Below are positions 33,744 to 54,885 of a DNA stretch of 64,000 bases, piece by piece. The notes beneath the pieces were generated by a model. The model saw nothing but the letters and a program-made list of their open reading frames with translations. It made no database searches and was not told the origin of the DNA. Within the stretch, counting starts at the first letter, position 1; each line of letters starts with the position of its first letter. This DNA is from Pirellulales bacterium (GTDB lineage: Bacteria; Planctomycetota; Planctomycetia; Pirellulales; Thermoguttaceae): the NCBI GenBank assembly GCA_016931995.1, contig JAFGDS010000069.1, positions 1-64,000 of the forward strand. The letters run 5' to 3'. A program made the translations under genes and the position numbers.

Positions 33744-33848
33744 CGGTTTTTGATGATCGGGGGCCCCTCGGCCGAGACGGGCGGCGCGGGCGGGCCGATC
33801 CCGCACGAGACACGCCTTCCCGTCAACCTAAGAAAGGAGCGAGACGTC

Positions 33849-34283
33849 ATGTCTACGCGCACACGGTTCTTGGCCCTTGGGCTGGGGTTGGCCGCGGTGT
33901 GGCTGGTCGTTCCCATGCTCGGCTGCAAGCCCGCCGAGTCGAAGAAGACGCCCGCGCCGCCGGCCGAGAGTGGGACCACGGTGCCTGACGAGAAACCGGT
34001 CGACGAGCCACCGGTGGTCGATCAGGAGCCGACTCCGCCGCCGGAGGTCACGCCGCCGGAGCCGACGCCCGAGCCGACGCCCGAAGCCACGCCGGCCGAG
34101 CCCCCGCCGTCCGTCGAGCCGCCGGCCGATCCGGCCCCGTCCGTCGAGCCGCCGGCCGATCCGGCCCCGTCCGTCGAGCCGCCGGTTGACCCCATTCCGC
34201 CGGTTGACCCCATTCCCCCGGCTAACCCCATTCCCCCGGCCGATCCCGTGCCGCCGGCGGAAACCCCGAAGCTGCCCACCTGA
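33849..34283 (+). CDS. Pro/Glu-rich repeat lipoprotein
   Basis: 144 residues; ATG 33849 with AAGGAGCG eleven bases upstream. A lipoprotein signal (LGLGLAAVWLVVPMLGC) ends at Cys26. The whole mature part is low complexity: PPEVTPPEPTPEPTPEATP, then three 10-residue units (PSVEPPADPA) and several PIPPVD/PIPPAN units. There is no folded domain. It is likely an extended wall-spanning or spacer lipoprotein; Pro-rich chains of this kind often bridge outer membrane and cell body. The repeats are also conserved as DNA, so copy number may vary between strains. Confidence 0.68.
   Translation: MSTRTRFLALGLGLAAVWLVVPMLGCKPAESKKTPAPPAESGTTVPDEKPVDEPPVVDQEPTPPPEVTPPEPTPEPTPEATPAEPPPSVEPPADPAPSVEPPADPAPSVEPPVDPIPPVDPIPPANPIPPADPVPPAETPKLPT
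34107..34193 (+). repeat. Tandem 30-base coding repeat, about three copies
   Basis: Two perfect copies (34107-34136 and 34137-34166) and a diverging third (from 34167) of a 30-base unit coding for PSVEPPADPA. A second run of 18-base units (PIPPVD-type) follows to about 34255. Both are in frame, so unit gain or loss would not disrupt the lipoprotein. Confidence 0.85.
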
Positions 34284-35964: not shown

Positions 35965-36906
35965 ATGCCAGGTAGACCATTGCACGTTGTGACGGGTGCG
36001 CTGGGTTATTCGGGCAAGTGCATCGCGAGGCGGTTGCTCGAGCTGGGCCACCGCGTGCGGACGTTGACCGGCTCGCCCGGACGCCCGAACCCCTTCAGCG
36101 ACGCCTTGGAAATTCACCCCTTCCACTTCGACCAGCCCGAGCGCCTCGTCGAGTCGCTCGCCGGCGCGGACGTGCTCTACAACACGTATTGGGTCCGCTT
36201 CAACCACCGCGAGTTCACGCACGCCGACGCCGTGCGCAACACGCTTGTGCTGTTTGACGCGGCCCGGCGCGCCGGGGTCCGCCGCGTCGTCCACGTCAGC
36301 ATTGCCAACCCCTCGGAAGATTCGCCGTTGGAATACTACCGCGGCAAGGCGCGGCTCGAGCGCGCCCTGGTCGATTCGGGGTTGTCGTACGCCATCCTCC
36401 GCCCGACCGTACTCTTCGGCAAGGAGGATATCCTGGTGAACAACATCGCTTGGAACGTCCGGCGGTTTGCCGTGCTGCCGGTTTTTGGCGGTGGTCAGTA
36501 CCGGATCCAGCCGGTCCACGTGGACGACCTGGCCCGGCTGGCCGTAGAGCAGGGCGCCGCGAGCGAGAACGTCATCCTCGACGCGGTTGGGCCGGAGACG
36601 TTCACCTACCGCCAGTTGCTGCTCACCCTGGCGGAAATCCTCGGCAAGCGGCGATGGATCGTGCCCGTGCCGGCCAGCGTCGGCTATCTCGGTTGCGTCG
36701 CGTTGGGCAAGCTGCTGGGCGACGTGATCCTCACGCGGGACGAGGTTCGCGGACTGATGGCGGGCTTGCTGGCCGTCGACTCGCCGCCGACCGGCACGGT
36801 TCTCCTAACCGACTGGGCCCGCCGGCGCGCCTCGACCCTCGGCCTGCGTTGGGCCAGCGAGTTGGCCCGGCGCCGCAACCGCCGCGAGGCCTACGACCGC
36901 CTTTGA
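35965..36906 (+). CDS. NAD(P)-binding atypical SDR / NDUFA9-like protein
   Basis: 313 residues with a Rossmann start VVTGALGYSGKCIARRLLE (GxxGxxG, about 9-15). It also has SIANPSEDSPLEYYRGKARLE (the YxxxK catalytic pair of SDRs replaced by a YYRGKA arrangement) and LRPTVLFG. This fits the atypical SDR a5 group near complex-I NDUFA9/TMR proteins rather than sugar epimerases. A later hydrophobic stretch (VGYLGCVALGKLLGDVIL) may touch the membrane. Substrate unknown. It stands alone, with stop codons 37 bases from the convergent Pal-like gene. Confidence 0.78.
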   Translation: MPGRPLHVVTGALGYSGKCIARRLLELGHRVRTLTGSPGRPNPFSDALEIHPFHFDQPERLVESLAGADVLYNTYWVRFNHREFTHADAVRNTLVLFDAARRAGVRRVVHVSIANPSEDSPLEYYRGKARLERALVDSGLSYAILRPTVLFGKEDILVNNIAWNVRRFAVLPVFGGGQYRIQPVHVDDLARLAVEQGAASENVILDAVGPETFTYRQLLLTLAEILGKRRWIVPVPASVGYLGCVALGKLLGDVILTRDEVRGLMAGLLAVDSPPTGTVLLTDWARRRASTLGLRWASELARRRNRREAYDRL

Positions 36907-36943
36907 CCGGTCCGAAGCCGAGCCCGCCTCGAGCATACGCCGA

Positions 36944-37837
36944 TCAGTACACGGTCGGGATCGTCTCGGTCCAGCCGACAACCGGGACGTTGGGGGCCAT
37001 GACGAACAATTCGACGCGGCGGTTGGCGCGGCGGTTCTGCTCGGAGCTGTTGGGGGCGATTGGCTGGTGGGAGCCGAACCCCGCCACGCCCATCTGGTCT
37101 TGCGCCACGCCCAGCTCGCGCAGCCGCCGGGCGACAGCCAGCGCCCGGGCGGTGCTCAGGTGCAGATTGGTGGGGAATTGCTCGCGGGCCGACCGTTTGG
37201 CGATCGCCCGGTCGTCCGTATGGCCCACCACCATCACGCGCAAGCCCTCCGCCTCGGCCCTCTTTAGCGTCTTGGCCAGATCGGCGAGGACCTTTTCCGC
37301 GCCGGGTTTCAGGTCGTCCTGGCCGCTGTCGAAAAGAATGTCCGTGTCCAGCTTGGCGATGCCGGTCCGCGGGTCGAACTTCAGTTCCGGGTGTTCGCGG
37401 GAGATGGCGGCCAACTGTCCACCCACGGCGGGCGGCACCAGCATCGGTCCGCCGCGGAGTTGCTCCTTGATGGCCTCGTGCTGCCGGCGGAAATCGGCCA
37501 GCCGTTGGCCGTCGCTCCCCACGCCGTCGTCGATCAGGGCCAGCTCCTCCTCCGTCCGCCGGAGTTGGTTTTCGATGTTGCGGCCGTGGATCTTGAGGTT
37601 TTCGATCTCGGCGAGCTGGGCCCGGTTTTGTTCGGACAGGGCCCGGTTCTGGGTTGTCAGGGCGTCAACCCGGCTTTGCGGCGCGAGACATCCGCCCGAC
37701 GCGAGCGCCAAGAGACCCAGGACGGCCACTGCGGGAGCGTGCCCCAGAGCGCGCGTCGCCCAGGGCGAGCGACCCGCGCGCATCGCGCCGCGAACAACCA
37801 GGCGCGCGCCAAGTGATTGGGCGTCAGACCGGCCCAT
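36944..37837 (-). CDS. OmpA/Pal-like peptidoglycan-associated lipoprotein
   Basis: About 297 residues from ATG 37837 (AGGAGTC nine bases upstream). A lipobox ASGGC at residue 50 ends a long signal region. A coiled coil follows (about 60-120, QNRALSEQNRAQLAEIENL). The C-terminal OmpA domain starts LDTDILFDSGQDDLKPGAEKV and has VVGHTDDRAIAKRSAREQFPTNLHLSTARALAV and GFGSHQPIAPNSSEQNRRANRRVELF, with the conserved peptidoglycan-binding TD...N..LS..RA and NRRVE positions. It would tie the outer membrane to peptidoglycan. The unusually long segment before the lipobox (50 residues) may mean the start is further in. Confidence 0.85.
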   Translation of the reverse strand: MGRSDAQSLGARLVVRGAMRAGRSPWATRALGHAPAVAVLGLLALASGGCLAPQSRVDALTTQNRALSEQNRAQLAEIENLKIHGRNIENQLRRTEEELALIDDGVGSDGQRLADFRRQHEAIKEQLRGGPMLVPPAVGGQLAAISREHPELKFDPRTGIAKLDTDILFDSGQDDLKPGAEKVLADLAKTLKRAEAEGLRVMVVGHTDDRAIAKRSAREQFPTNLHLSTARALAVARRLRELGVAQDQMGVAGFGSHQPIAPNSSEQNRRANRRVELFVMAPNVPVVGWTETIPTVY

Positions 37838-37886
37838 GATTCGACTCCTTTCGAATCGGTTTGCTTCCATGCCGGATCACGCGGCG

Positions 37887-38972
37887 TTAGCTAATCAGAT
37901 CCATGAGCCAACTGTTCACGCGATACGTGCCGCCCCAGCTCCACATATTCCACATGAGATCGACCATGAACATGCCGACGACGACGAGGATCACGGTGCA
38001 TCCGGCGAGGCTGAGGATATTCCAGGCGGAATAGGGCGCCTCGGGCAGGACCGCGGCCGGCGGGCCGGCGGCCGCCTGGGCGCTCATCGCGGCGTAGTCG
38101 CGCGACGCGGCCAGCACCGGACTGTCCATCACGGGCGCCGCCGCGCGCCCCCGCGCCGCGGGCACCGGGGCGATCGGCTCCAGTTCCTCAACCACGTCGG
38201 CGTCGAGCATGGCTGGCAGCCCCTCGGGGGCCAGGTCCTCCTCGCTTTCCAGCGCAATCACCTGCGAGCCGCTCTGGTCGTCTTCGCCGGCCTCGTCCAG
38301 GGGCGTCAGCAGGAAGTCGCCCTCCGTGTTCAGGGCGGTGGGCGCTTCCGAGTCGGCCGCTTCCTCGAGCGAAAGGACTTCGTCCTCGCCGAGTTGAAGC
38401 GATTCGTGGCCGCTGCCCACCAGGTCGAGCGGCTCTTCCAGCGAGAGCCCGCTGTCGGCCGGATCGACCAGCGAGATCCCGCTGTCGCCGCCGATGGTGA
38501 TGTCGCTGCCCGCGCCGCTGCCGCCGAGCACCAGATCGTCGTCGTCCAGCTCGTCGCCCGCCAATTCCAGCCCCGAGGAACTGCCGGTCGAGGAATCGAC
38601 CGACAAGTCCAATTGGCTGTCGCCCAGCGTCAGGTCGAGATCCTCGAAGCCCGAGAGGGACGAGCCCAGGTCGCTCTTCGTTTCGTGGAACAGCGCCTCG
38701 TCGGGCGGAGGACCGATCACCGTGCCGGAGGAGCCGGAATCGGAATGGCCCAACTCGACCTCGCTCAGCAGAACGTCCTCGTCAGACGACGTGTCCGGCG
38801 AGGCGGGCGGGCCCTGGGCGGCCAGGACGTCGATTTCCTCGGCGCGGAATTTCCAGTCGGCCCCGTCGCGATAGCCGTGCAACTCCTGCCGCTCGCGCAT
38901 CGCGTTGATCTCGGCCGGGCTCACGCCCAGGACTTCGGCGGCCTTCTCGACGTTGTAAAACTTAGTGGGCAT
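37887..38972 (-). CDS. Membrane-anchored excisionase-type HTH protein with acidic linker
   Basis: 361 residues. An N-terminal MerR/excisionase-like helix-turn-helix (NVEKAAEVLGVSPAEINAMRE, then GADWKFRAEEIDVLAAQ) spans about 1-52. About 240 residues of Asp/Ser/Gly-rich linker follow (DLDLTLGDSQLDLSVDSSTG, GEDEVLSLEEAADSE). One membrane helix (about 319-341, LAGCTVILVVVGMFMVDLMW) and a short tail close it. This topology (cytoplasmic DNA-binding head, membrane tail) suggests a ToxR-like membrane-tethered regulator or a nucleoid tether. The linker might instead be a phosphorylation or binding region. It is 5 bases downstream of a small secreted gene on the same strand, so cotranscribed. Confidence 0.75.
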   Translation of the reverse strand: MPTKFYNVEKAAEVLGVSPAEINAMRERQELHGYRDGADWKFRAEEIDVLAAQGPPASPDTSSDEDVLLSEVELGHSDSGSSGTVIGPPPDEALFHETKSDLGSSLSGFEDLDLTLGDSQLDLSVDSSTGSSSGLELAGDELDDDDLVLGGSGAGSDITIGGDSGISLVDPADSGLSLEEPLDLVGSGHESLQLGEDEVLSLEEAADSEAPTALNTEGDFLLTPLDEAGEDDQSGSQVIALESEEDLAPEGLPAMLDADVVEELEPIAPVPAARGRAAAPVMDSPVLAASRDYAAMSAQAAAGPPAAVLPEAPYSAWNILSLAGCTVILVVVGMFMVDLMWNMWSWGGTYRVNSWLMDLIS

Positions 38973-38977
38973 TCAGG

Positions 38978-39331
38978 TTACCTCTGTTCCGCCAACGCTT
39001 GAATCTCCCGGGGCAAGGGCGCCTTGCCGTTGAAGTCGGACATCTGCAGATCCCAGTGGATGTTGCGCACGCTCCGCAAGGTGATCCCGCCCGTGACGAG
39101 GTCGATGTGATATACACTGATCACGCGCCCGCGAGGATCGATCACCGTTACTTGCTGATACTTCTGTTCGACCGTCGTGCTGAAGGCCACGAGTCCGTCG
39201 CGCGCGGCGGCCACCTCGATCGGATTGCCGCGTTCCGTCGACCCTTGCGGCGCCCGACCACCGACCTCGGCCACCGTCGAGCCCAACAGAACCACTCCAA
39301 CCAAAAGGACACCCAGCACGAAGGTCTTCAT
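38978..39331 (-). CDS. Small exported hypothetical protein
   Basis: 117 residues from ATG 39331 with GAGGTGCG nine bases upstream. A signal peptide or anchor (MKTFVLGVLLVGVVLLGSTV) is followed by a beta-rich domain with DGLVAFSTTVEQKYQQVTVI, VISVYHIDLVTGGITLRSVR and IHWDLQMSDFNGKAPLP. No Cys and no known motif. The stop is 5 bases before the start of the HTH-membrane gene, so the two are almost certainly an operon; the protein may be the extracytoplasmic partner of that regulator. Confidence 0.72.
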   Translation of the reverse strand: MKTFVLGVLLVGVVLLGSTVAEVGGRAPQGSTERGNPIEVAAARDGLVAFSTTVEQKYQQVTVIDPRGRVISVYHIDLVTGGITLRSVRNIHWDLQMSDFNGKAPLPREIQALAEQR

Positions 39332-39572
39332 GACGCACCTCGAGAGGGATTCAAGAGGGCTGGGGATCCTAGATTCCATTCTAGGTACCCTGGGCCTCCA
39401 TTTCAAGCAAACTCGTCCCCAGAGAAGGGGGCGAAGAAGTGTATCGACAGGTGTCCGGGGGTGCAAGGGCAGCTTGAAGGTCCGGGCGCGACCCTTTTCC
39501 CAAACCGGGGTGGCGCCTAGAATTGGCGCGCCTGCGATAGGCTGTCCCGGCCGGTCACCCCGCGCTGATCTC

Positions 39573-40265
39573 ATGCCCACCCAACCCGAAAACGCGATCG
39601 TCGGAGCGCTCCTGAGTGGAGGTCTCGACAGCTCTATCCTTGTGGGGGACCTTCTCCGGAGGGGGAATCGGGTGCAACCGTTCTTCATCCGATCGGGGTT
39701 GACCTGGGAGCAGGGCGAGTTGACGGCGTCCGAGCAGTTTCTCAACGCCCTGGCCACGGACCGAATTGAGCCGCTGGTGGTGTTCGAGATGCCCCTGTGG
39801 GACCTGCACGGCGACCATTGGAGCGTCACCGGTCGGGACGTGCCGGGGGCCGACAGCGACGACACGGCCGTCTACCTGCCCGGGCGCAACGTGCTTCTCC
39901 TGGTCAAGGCGGCCATCTGGTGCCAGCGGCGCGGCATCCGCGAGCTTGCCCTGGGCGTGCTGGGAACGAGCCCTTTCGCCGACGCCCACGGACCGTTTTT
40001 CCACCACCTCGAGGCCATGTTCGCCCGGTCGGGCGACGGCGTGGTCCGCATCGTCCGGCCGTTCTCGGGGCTGAGCAAGCGACAAGTCATGGAACTGGGA
40101 CGCGATTTGCCGTTACAATGGACGTTCTCCTGCATTGCGCCGGTTGAAGGGCTGCACTGCGGGCGGTGCAACAAGTGCGCGGAGCGGATCAAGGCGTTCC
40201 GATCCGTCGGCATGGCCGACCCGACCCAATACGCCGACGCCGCTCGCCCCGCGGCCACCCACTAA
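39573..40265 (+). CDS. queC: 7-cyano-7-deazaguanine (preQ0) synthase
   Basis: 230 residues. The ATP pyrophosphatase loop SGGLDS is at 15-20, VYLPGRN at 100-106, and a zinc site of four Cys (C187, C196, C199, C202) at the C-terminus, as in QueC/ExsB. It makes preQ0 from CDG using ATP and ammonia, in the queuosine route. A queD-like gene follows after 21 bases. queE, which makes CDG, is not in the window. The insertion around residues 75-95 (LHGDHWSVTGRDVPG) is slightly longer than in E. coli. The start chosen is ATG 39573. Confidence 0.87.
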   Translation: MPTQPENAIVGALLSGGLDSSILVGDLLRRGNRVQPFFIRSGLTWEQGELTASEQFLNALATDRIEPLVVFEMPLWDLHGDHWSVTGRDVPGADSDDTAVYLPGRNVLLLVKAAIWCQRRGIRELALGVLGTSPFADAHGPFFHHLEAMFARSGDGVVRIVRPFSGLSKRQVMELGRDLPLQWTFSCIAPVEGLHCGRCNKCAERIKAFRSVGMADPTQYADAARPAATH

Positions 40266-40286
40266 AAACGCTTGCCTACTCACCCC

Positions 40287-40706
40287 ATGTTTCAGGTCAC
40301 CCGAGAGATCGACTTCTGCTACGGCCACCGCCTCCTGGATTATCAGGGCAAATGCGCGCGGCTGCACGGGCACAACGGACGCGTGCTCATCACAATCCAA
40401 ACCGCGATGCTCGACCCGCAAGGGATGGTCGTCGACTTCAACGAAATCAAGCGGTCCGTGGCCGGCTGGATCGACGAACACCTGGACCACCGCATGATCC
40501 TCCGGCGGGACGATCCGGCGGTGGCTCCGCTGGAGCAGTGGGGCGAACGCCCGTACCTGCTCGACGTGAACCCCACGGCCGAGAATCTCGCCCGACTCAT
40601 CTTCGAGCAGGCCCGAAGGGAGGGGCTTCCCGTGGTCGAGGTCCGGCTTTGGGAGACTCCGCAATGCCAGGCCGTTTTCGCGCCGGCTGACGGCGATGGG
40701 GCGTGA
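40287..40706 (+). CDS. queD: 6-carboxy-5,6,7,8-tetrahydropterin synthase (QueD)
   Basis: 139 residues. Zinc ligands are His14 (FCYGHRL) and His27/His29 in LHGHNGR; the catalytic Cys23 precedes them (CARLHGH). VVDFNEIK and DHRMIL with the late NPTAENLA and VEVRLWETPQCQAVF match the T-fold family. It converts dihydroneopterin triphosphate to CPH4, the second step of queuosine synthesis, feeding QueE and QueC. It lies 21 bases after queC and is likely cotranscribed. An upstream TTG (40272) is in frame but less likely. Confidence 0.86.
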   Translation: MFQVTREIDFCYGHRLLDYQGKCARLHGHNGRVLITIQTAMLDPQGMVVDFNEIKRSVAGWIDEHLDHRMILRRDDPAVAPLEQWGERPYLLDVNPTAENLARLIFEQARREGLPVVEVRLWETPQCQAVFAPADGDGA

Positions 40707-54171: not shown

Positions 54172-54885
54172 TCACCCCGACAAACCCTGCTCGGTCTCGA
54201 CGACGAGCCGATGCGCCTTGATCGGGTCGTCAAGTTCGCGGAGTTGATCGAGGAAGCCGGGCGCGGTCAGCACGCGGCTCAGCCGGGCAAGCGTCCGCAG
54301 GTGGCCGCGGTCGTCGGTCGAGCAGATCAGAAAGAATACATCGGTCAGGCTGCCACCGCTGCCGCCAAACGAGATGCCCCTGGGCGTGCGGCCCAGCGTG
54401 AGCAGGGCCTGGCCGAGAACGCCCGGCAGGGGCCGGCGGGGGTGCAGCAGGGCGACGCCGTTTTCCAGAGCCGTCGGGTGCATCTCCTCGCGGGAGCGGA
54501 CGGCCTCGATCATCTTCTCGGCGTCCCAGAGCATGCCCGTGCGCGCGGCCAGCTCGACCATCGCCCGGATGACCGACGCGGCGGTCTTCGCGCCCAGCGG
54601 CAGGGCTATCGCCTCCACCGGCAGCATGTCGCCCAGCGCGATCTCCGTCTCGTCGCCGGGCCGGGCCGCGCGGCCCAACATGCCTTCGACCTCGATGAGC
54701 TCTTCGTCGTCGGAAAGGCCGATCCGATGCTCCATCCAATGGTGGATTTCCGCGCGGGAGAAACGCCACTGCCCGCCCACCTTGCGCCCCGGCAGCCGCC
54801 CGCGGTCCGCCAGCCGGGCCACCTGCTGCGGCGACAGGTGCAAATGCGTCGCAAGCGTCTCGACGGTGAAATCCTGGTGCGGCAT
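54172..54885 (-). CDS. HTH-EIIA fusion (excisionase-type HTH plus PTS EIIA-Fru/Ntr domain)
   Basis: 237 residues. An excisionase/MerR-type HTH at about 5-55 (LATHLHLSPQQVARLADRGRL, VGGQWRFSRAEIHHWMEH) is fused to a PTS EIIA type 2 domain (about 85-230). REEMHPTALENGVALLHPRRP contains the phosphoacceptor His of EIIA-Fru/Ntr; GISFGGSGGSLTDVFFLICS and LRTLARLSRVL complete the fold. It suggests a phosphorelay-controlled DNA-binding protein rather than a sugar transporter part. No EI, HPr or EIIB/EIIC is nearby. It may control the divergent Gfo/Idh/MocA gene or other targets. Confidence 0.82.
   Translation of the reverse strand: MPHQDFTVETLATHLHLSPQQVARLADRGRLPGRKVGGQWRFSRAEIHHWMEHRIGLSDDEELIEVEGMLGRAARPGDETEIALGDMLPVEAIALPLGAKTAASVIRAMVELAARTGMLWDAEKMIEAVRSREEMHPTALENGVALLHPRRPLPGVLGQALLTLGRTPRGISFGGSGGSLTDVFFLICSTDDRGHLRTLARLSRVLTAPGFLDQLRELDDPIKAHRLVVETEQGLSG

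Follow-up and report, generated by a model that had tools for sequence, protein, structure and literature searches.

The sequence analysed here, hereafter the window, is a stretch of 64,000 nucleotides from a Pirellulales bacterium (assembly GCA_016931995.1, contig JAFGDS010000069.1). Three genes follow one another closely on its minus strand: P0002 (38978-39331), encoding a small exported protein of 117 residues with a predicted signal peptide and five-strand meander; P0001 (37887-38972), an open reading frame of 361 residues; and P0003 (36944-37870), encoding a Pal-like OmpA-domain lipoprotein. The gaps between them measure 5 nt (P0002 to P0001) and 16 nt (P0001 to P0003), so that the three genes likely form a single operon. 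Upstream of P0002, on the same strand, a -35-like TTGAAA (39401-39406) and a -10-like TAGAAT (39378-39383), spaced by 17 bp, may constitute its promoter. The original prediction had placed a small exported protein 5 bases from P0001 and a Pal-like lipoprotein downstream of it, and both were recovered.

P0001 consists of four parts. Residues 1-54 (38811-38972) form an HTH_17 head of the MerR/excisionase fold, as indicated by Pfam, AlphaFold2, a structure match to BldC and column statistics; residues 55-315 (38028-38810) form an acidic, disordered linker with conserved short motifs; residues 316-343 (37944-38027) form a transmembrane helix; and residues 344-361 with the stop codon (37887-37943) form a short tail, whose family consensus is WSW..PY.VNS.LMD. 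Pfam HTH_17 matches residues 5-53 above its cut-off (E 4.7e-7, 30.4 bits, cut-off 27) and is the sole Pfam domain found, and the NCBIfam excisionase model TIGR01764 scores 19.5 bits, below its cut-off of 28.8. In the AlphaFold2 model the HTH has a pLDDT of 87-96 and the helix 316-343 one of up to 95, a short low-confidence helix follows at 352-360, and the linker is mostly below 50, that is, predicted as disorder, with no coiled coil. The excisionase-type HTH and the C-terminal membrane helix of the original prediction are thus confirmed; its linker is indeed acidic and long (net charge -55, D+E 23%, S+G 24%), but comprises 261 residues rather than 240. This architecture is kept in the full-length homologues, a comparison that omits L064, which has no anchor match.

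P0002 begins with a signal-peptide-like stretch, and an A-x-A-like site lies at residues 17-45 in 50 of 53 homologues. The protein matched no Pfam or NCBIfam family above cut-off and, by sequence, no PDB entry at E up to 1; its best Foldseek E value was 0.24, so that a TolB/Pal row at E 1.4 was left unused. In P0003, a lipobox-like SGGC precedes the OmpA domain (Pfam, E 7.3e-18), and the true start may lie further in. P0003 scores 49.5 bits against the Pal model TIGR02802, below the equivalog cut-off of 125.35, yet it is the top Pal match of the genome. TolB_N (PF04052) had no matches in the window's genome and was detected in 3 of 14 control genomes.

A P0001 homologue was found in 55 of 60 relatives, the window's own genome counted, and in all 44 of those that are at least 90% complete and no more than 5% contaminated; the five without one are 73-89% complete. 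In 54 of these 55 loci, profiles of both families placed the exported gene immediately before the P0001 homologue and on its strand. In the one exception (L079, 8902-12792), the homologue has 1296 residues and an enormous acidic linker, and no exported neighbour was found. Such retention of the pair in 54 of 55 loci, and of the architecture in the homologues, ruled out a chance neighbourhood.

We also looked at the distribution of both families beyond these relatives. Among 148 genomes across the phylum, the HTH-protein profile matched 111 and the exported-protein profile 47; many of the 111 matched via the HTH alone, so this number overstates the family. Of the 47 genomes encoding the exported gene, 46 have it immediately before the HTH gene, G075 being the sole exception; 36 cases were read from listed coordinates, side by side on one strand, and ten from fetched stretches scanned with HTH profiles (G136, G142, G087, G107, G155, G100, G183, G068, G193 and G127). 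The same order holds in 35 of 35 loci from other classes, for which presence of the exported gene had been the selection criterion. Scanning the genomes of 84,980 species gave 80 named loci, the best 80 of 145 relatives, with head and tail in one frame in 75, the exported gene in 65 and both in 63; Blastopirellula marina DSM 3645 (L182) has both genes. Among the titles of these best 80 of 145, none names a phylum outside Planctomycetota except that of L132, Candidatus Nealsonbacteria, which carries a Pirellulales-type pair and is probably misbinned. The cassette is therefore retained across much of the phylum.

The pairing is not obligatory. In the sister family f21 the HTH protein is present in 12 of 12 genomes and the exported homologue in none of them, so the co-occurrence of the two genes across planctomycetes, proposed originally as a check, holds in the relatives and in most of the phylum genomes encoding the exported gene but breaks down in this family. 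The exported gene was likewise absent from all 8 f21 loci, from 7 of 7 other loci, and from 11 of the 75 named Pirellulales loci with upstream room. Five of these 11 loci, of the Mariniblastus type (L158, L168, L170, L172 and L183), have tails scoring 43-44 bits, and comparison loci with the exported gene and a similar HTH score, 3 to 6 loci each, have tail medians near 79 bits. The f21 tails are degenerate (15-54 bits), with the head kept, and four of the 11 loci retain a normal tail of 77-81 bits. The tail comparison omits L175, at a contig edge, and the truncated L112, L115, L139, L148 and L184. Tail and exported partner may thus have been lost together, a mixed pattern based on few independent events.

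These losses bear on a reading in which the genes are neighbours without physical partnership, the HTH-membrane protein acting alone and the other two genes merely sharing its promoter. The HTH proteins found without an exported gene, including the four with a normal tail, would fit such independence. The near-constant position of the exported gene in the phylum genomes speaks against it, as do the degenerate tails beside kept heads in the Mariniblastus-type loci and f21, few as the independent events are, and we consider this reading decidedly improbable.

An OmpA lipoprotein gene of the same orientation lies no more than 1.2 kb downstream in 29 of the 55 relatives' loci, five of the misses having less than 900 bp of contig remaining, and in 21 of the 35 other-class loci selected for the exported gene; none of the 8 f21 loci has the lipoprotein next door. 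The Pal-like neighbour of the original prediction is therefore a recurrent one. Upstream of the other-class cassettes and in the same direction, we found type II secretion E and F genes in 14 to 16 loci and a histidine kinase gene in 16, often with a CNNM/CorC-type gene (loci L185, L186, L188-L190, L194-L197, L199, L201-L203 and L217). Some other-class cassettes precede genes that, named by eye from sequence, resemble those for dimethyladenosine transferase, primase and sigma factors.

A MotA/TolQ/ExbB gene is found upstream, on the opposite strand, in 11 of the relatives' loci, in most of which one or two single-TM proteins come next; in the window's genome the MotA/TolQ/ExbB homologue is on a different contig. 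The gene occurs with two single-TM proteins in L034 (9112-13759), L047 (2200-6457) and L059 (1388-5802), where queC/queD-like genes stand between the cassette and this group, and Pfam gave no match for the single-TM proteins of L047 and L059. Like the Tol-Pal system, the cassette combines a single-pass protein of the inner membrane with a periplasmic beta protein and a Pal-like lipoprotein of the OmpA type, and a MotA/TolQ/ExbB gene lies near some of its copies. It differs from Tol-Pal in that the genome has no TolB_N and P0003 falls below the Pal cut-off. P0001 is also unlike TolA.

The orientation of P0001 in the membrane was considered from its hydrophobic segments and flanking charges; these counts, like those of linker charge and motifs below, omit the truncated L045 and L072. 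A single hydrophobic segment is present in 52 of 52 proteins of the relatives (set A) and in 8 of 8 f21 proteins; the 42 other-class proteins divide into 31 with one such segment, 10 with two and one with none. Lysine and arginine residues are more numerous before the membrane segment than after it in 4 of the 52 Pirellulales proteins, with the opposite in 29, so that the positive-inside rule speaks against a cytoplasmic N-terminus there. The other-class proteins are mildly in its favour, with 19 for and 10 against among the 42 examined. We kept the N-in orientation because moving 315 residues across the membrane without a signal sequence seems unlikely; a cytoplasmic head and linker are thus argued from the absent signal sequence and from the other-class charge counts.

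The linker contains DSGISL..DSGLSLE (residues 163-179), DFLLTP (219) and SGSQVIAL (234). In alignment A3 (59 rows), S234, S236, Q237, V238, I239, A240, L241, F220 and L222 of the linker are invariant, as are D36, G37 and W40 of the head; A3 derives from a genome scan keyed on the SQVI-type linker motif, so the invariance of this motif is biased. A3 covers 58 of 72 named homologues and A4 all 64, each together with the window's protein, and the smaller alignments A1 and A2 hold 43 and 38 of about 54 homologues. In set A the SQVI-type motif is present in 37 of 52 proteins, against 1 of 50 in the other classes (set B), so linker motifs differ by class. DSG-type motifs number 108 copies in the 52 proteins, compared with 1.7 in shuffles. 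The mean net charge of the linker is -69 (f21 -109, remainder -28). A random filler was ruled out, since the short motifs are conserved like the HTH and far exceed the shuffles, and the linker may instead present docking motifs on a polyanionic tether.

In the AlphaFold2 model the head folds as strand-helix-helix-wing-helix, and its closest structures by VIA-align are BldC (Z 9.6), Xis (Z 7.9) and RdfS (Z 7.6), with CbpM (3ucs) also matching at Z 6.8. Sequence searches of the PDB gave the repeat protein 8vd6 with both profiles, together with a weak KtrA row (E 0.46) for the whole-protein profile and 11 weaker rows, including RacA (E 0.95), for the HTH profile. BldC, Xis and RdfS share the head fold and are soluble DNA-binders; P0001 differs from them in its long linker, its transmembrane helix and its acidic residues at the recognition helix and wing. 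HTH-fold heads can also bind protein, as in RodZ, which binds MreB, and CbpM, which binds a J-domain. RodZ is itself a single-pass protein with a cytoplasmic HTH, of another HTH type, and has a large outer domain.

To compare head composition, 54 relatives (A), 50 other-class proteins (B) and 29 other HTH_17 domains (C) were placed on one profile. The controls are 29 of 30 HTH_17 loci from related genomes, the one left out belonging to the target family; they were selected by HTH_17 score, which over-represents high-scoring HTH_17 domains. The mean net charge of the head is -1.06 in A, -2.36 in B and +2.55 in C. Acidic residues occupy column 20 in 59% of A, 80% of B and 3% of C, column 21 in 70%, 70% and 0%, and column 36 in 100%, 76% and 0%, respectively. 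Column 24 is basic in 30% of A, 66% of B and 83% of the score-selected controls. From the model and the known layout of MerR proteins, we take columns 20 and 21 to be the start of the recognition helix and column 36 the wing. A net acidic head with acids at these positions counts against canonical DNA reading, and by this proxy the head looks unfit for ordinary DNA binding, the basic column 24 kept in two thirds of B notwithstanding. The plain DNA binding of the original prediction thus finds evidence against it in the charge of the head. An excisionase or phage origin was ruled out by the near-universal presence in the order and the constant gene company, and the annotation 'excisionase family DNA-binding protein' would mislead for P0001.

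The closest described architecture is that of RocS of Streptococcus pneumoniae, which has an N-terminal MerR-type wHTH, a long middle and a C-terminal membrane link, as P0001 does (PMC11500499). In RocS the middle domain is a coiled coil with DUF536 (PMC11500499). The main rival of the reading that we prefer is accordingly a nucleoid tether like RocS or RacA, in which the head would bind chromosomal DNA at low specificity and aid segregation in FtsZ-less bacteria, the linker would bridge the gap and the transmembrane helix would fix the protein to the membrane. The order of parts, the near-universal presence of P0001 in the order and fold matches of the head to RacA of Bacillus subtilis bound to DNA (5i44, Z 6.1) and to pSK1 Par (8csh, Z 6.0) are in its favour, and the wHTH head with a membrane link is common to P0001 and these tethers. 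However, the head is net acidic, and a linker that is so strong a polyanion would repel DNA. RocS and RacA combine an amphipathic helix with a coiled coil, whereas P0001 has a transmembrane helix and a disordered polyanionic linker without a coiled coil, HTH_17 being its only Pfam domain; it also has an acidic head and an exported partner gene. P0001 therefore departs from the closest architecture in lacking a coiled coil and perhaps in not binding DNA, and we regard the tether as possible but somewhat unlikely.

The putative promoter region contains an inverted repeat around the -10 box (39360-39394, minus strand), with arms at about 39381-39394 and 39360-39372. Of 65 regions preceding the exported gene, 60 contain an element of the form TTG[CA]A, 16-17 bp, TA[CG]AAT, whose -10 box lies within an inverted repeat and whose GGG part is a median of 62.5 bp ahead of the ATG. 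In just 18 to 20 of the 65 regions, which do not include the window's own, this repeat is the single best of the region with the -10 box at its loop. The arms covary across genomes, own-arm pairing being 6.54 versus 5.05 for swapped arms (59 distinct elements; 0 of 5000 permutations, with relatedness ignored). RNAalifold found no pairs in the promoter alignment, probably owing to MAFFT gaps inside one arm, and the arm-swap test was used instead; alignment A6 holds 47 of the 60 promoter elements. At E values up to 1, Rfam gave no matches on 36500-40500. With up to 3 mismatches allowed, the genome contains the window's element a single time; a consensus pattern matched one position in each of 2 of 36 relatives, in both immediately ahead of the cassette.

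Such a repeat, single in the genome and covarying in its arms, would suit a membrane-bound transcription factor, in which P0002 would sense the envelope and the HTH would regulate its own operon or others. ToxR/ToxS and TcpP/TcpH are membrane-bound transcription factors with a periplasmic partner, and the combination of an HTH, a transmembrane helix and an adjoining exported gene would be in keeping with this. Across 58 genomes, repeat distance correlates with exported-protein distance (0.37) and with head distance (0.18), but with exported-protein and tail distances fixed the partial correlation with the head is -0.03 and that with the recognition helix -0.10. Co-drift of repeat and HTH was thus rejected: the repeat is real, but it does not drift in step with the head and gives no evidence that this HTH binds there. 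With an acidic head and an outside tail of a mere 18 residues also against it, a regulatory role of this kind appears very doubtful.

We favour a trans-envelope scaffold, with an HTH-fold head that probably binds protein, and give this reading a probability of roughly 0.4. The three genes would encode one assembly, old in Planctomycetota. The C-terminal helix of P0001 would anchor it in the inner membrane, with linker and head reaching into the cytoplasm; secreted P0002 would meet the short outer tail of P0001; and the Pal-like lipoprotein would connect the whole to peptidoglycan and the outer membrane. In this reading the head, which keeps the MerR/excisionase fold, probably binds protein, like the heads of RodZ and CbpM, and the linker motifs would dock further clients. 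The analysis established the fold, the disorder, the transmembrane helix, the linkage of the genes, the conservation of the motifs and the acidity of the head, whereas the topology, the contact of the three proteins, protein rather than DNA binding and the scaffold role itself are inferred. The constant company of envelope genes, an acidic head whose fold is a protein-binding domain in CbpM, the conserved linker motifs, and a top Pal match in a genome without TolB_N all argue for the scaffold. On the other side, the closest folds belong to DNA-bound proteins (BldC, RacA), the operator-like, locus-specific repeat would suit a local regulator, f21 lacks the exported gene in all 12 genomes and the adjoining lipoprotein in all 8 loci, the Pirellulales positive-inside counts point the other way, and the control heads were score-selected.

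A bolder version, which we hold to be rather improbable, would make the cassette an undescribed Planctomycetota envelope machine that replaces Tol-Pal and whose MerR-fold head has traded DNA reading for protein binding; a single-copy promoter would drive it, with the covarying inverted repeat perhaps sensing DNA shape or an unknown regulator. Here the inner membrane would anchor a polyanionic brush studded with motifs and topped by the head, and P0001, the secreted meander protein and the Pal-like lipoprotein would link the cytoplasm to the outer membrane in FtsZ-less bacteria. The class Planctomycetia has lost FtsZ, and among the proteins essential in P. limnophila, 108 are phylum-specific and of unknown function (PMC10632474). 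Our search of the literature, judged by titles and abstract openings, found nothing on the P0001/P0002 pair. Its constancy across the phylum makes the cassette a strong candidate for core envelope biology. If the head binds no DNA, P0001 would clearly exemplify a MerR fold that has become a membrane-tethered protein module; if the head binds DNA, P0001 would be a nucleoid tether in a group for which the literature searched yielded none.

Elsewhere in the window, a second HTH_17 protein is encoded on the minus strand (54706-54882, within a frame of 254 residues; PF12728, E 1.3e-12), and an open reading frame at 33750-34283 encodes a lipoprotein-like protein with proline-rich SVEPPADPAP repeats.
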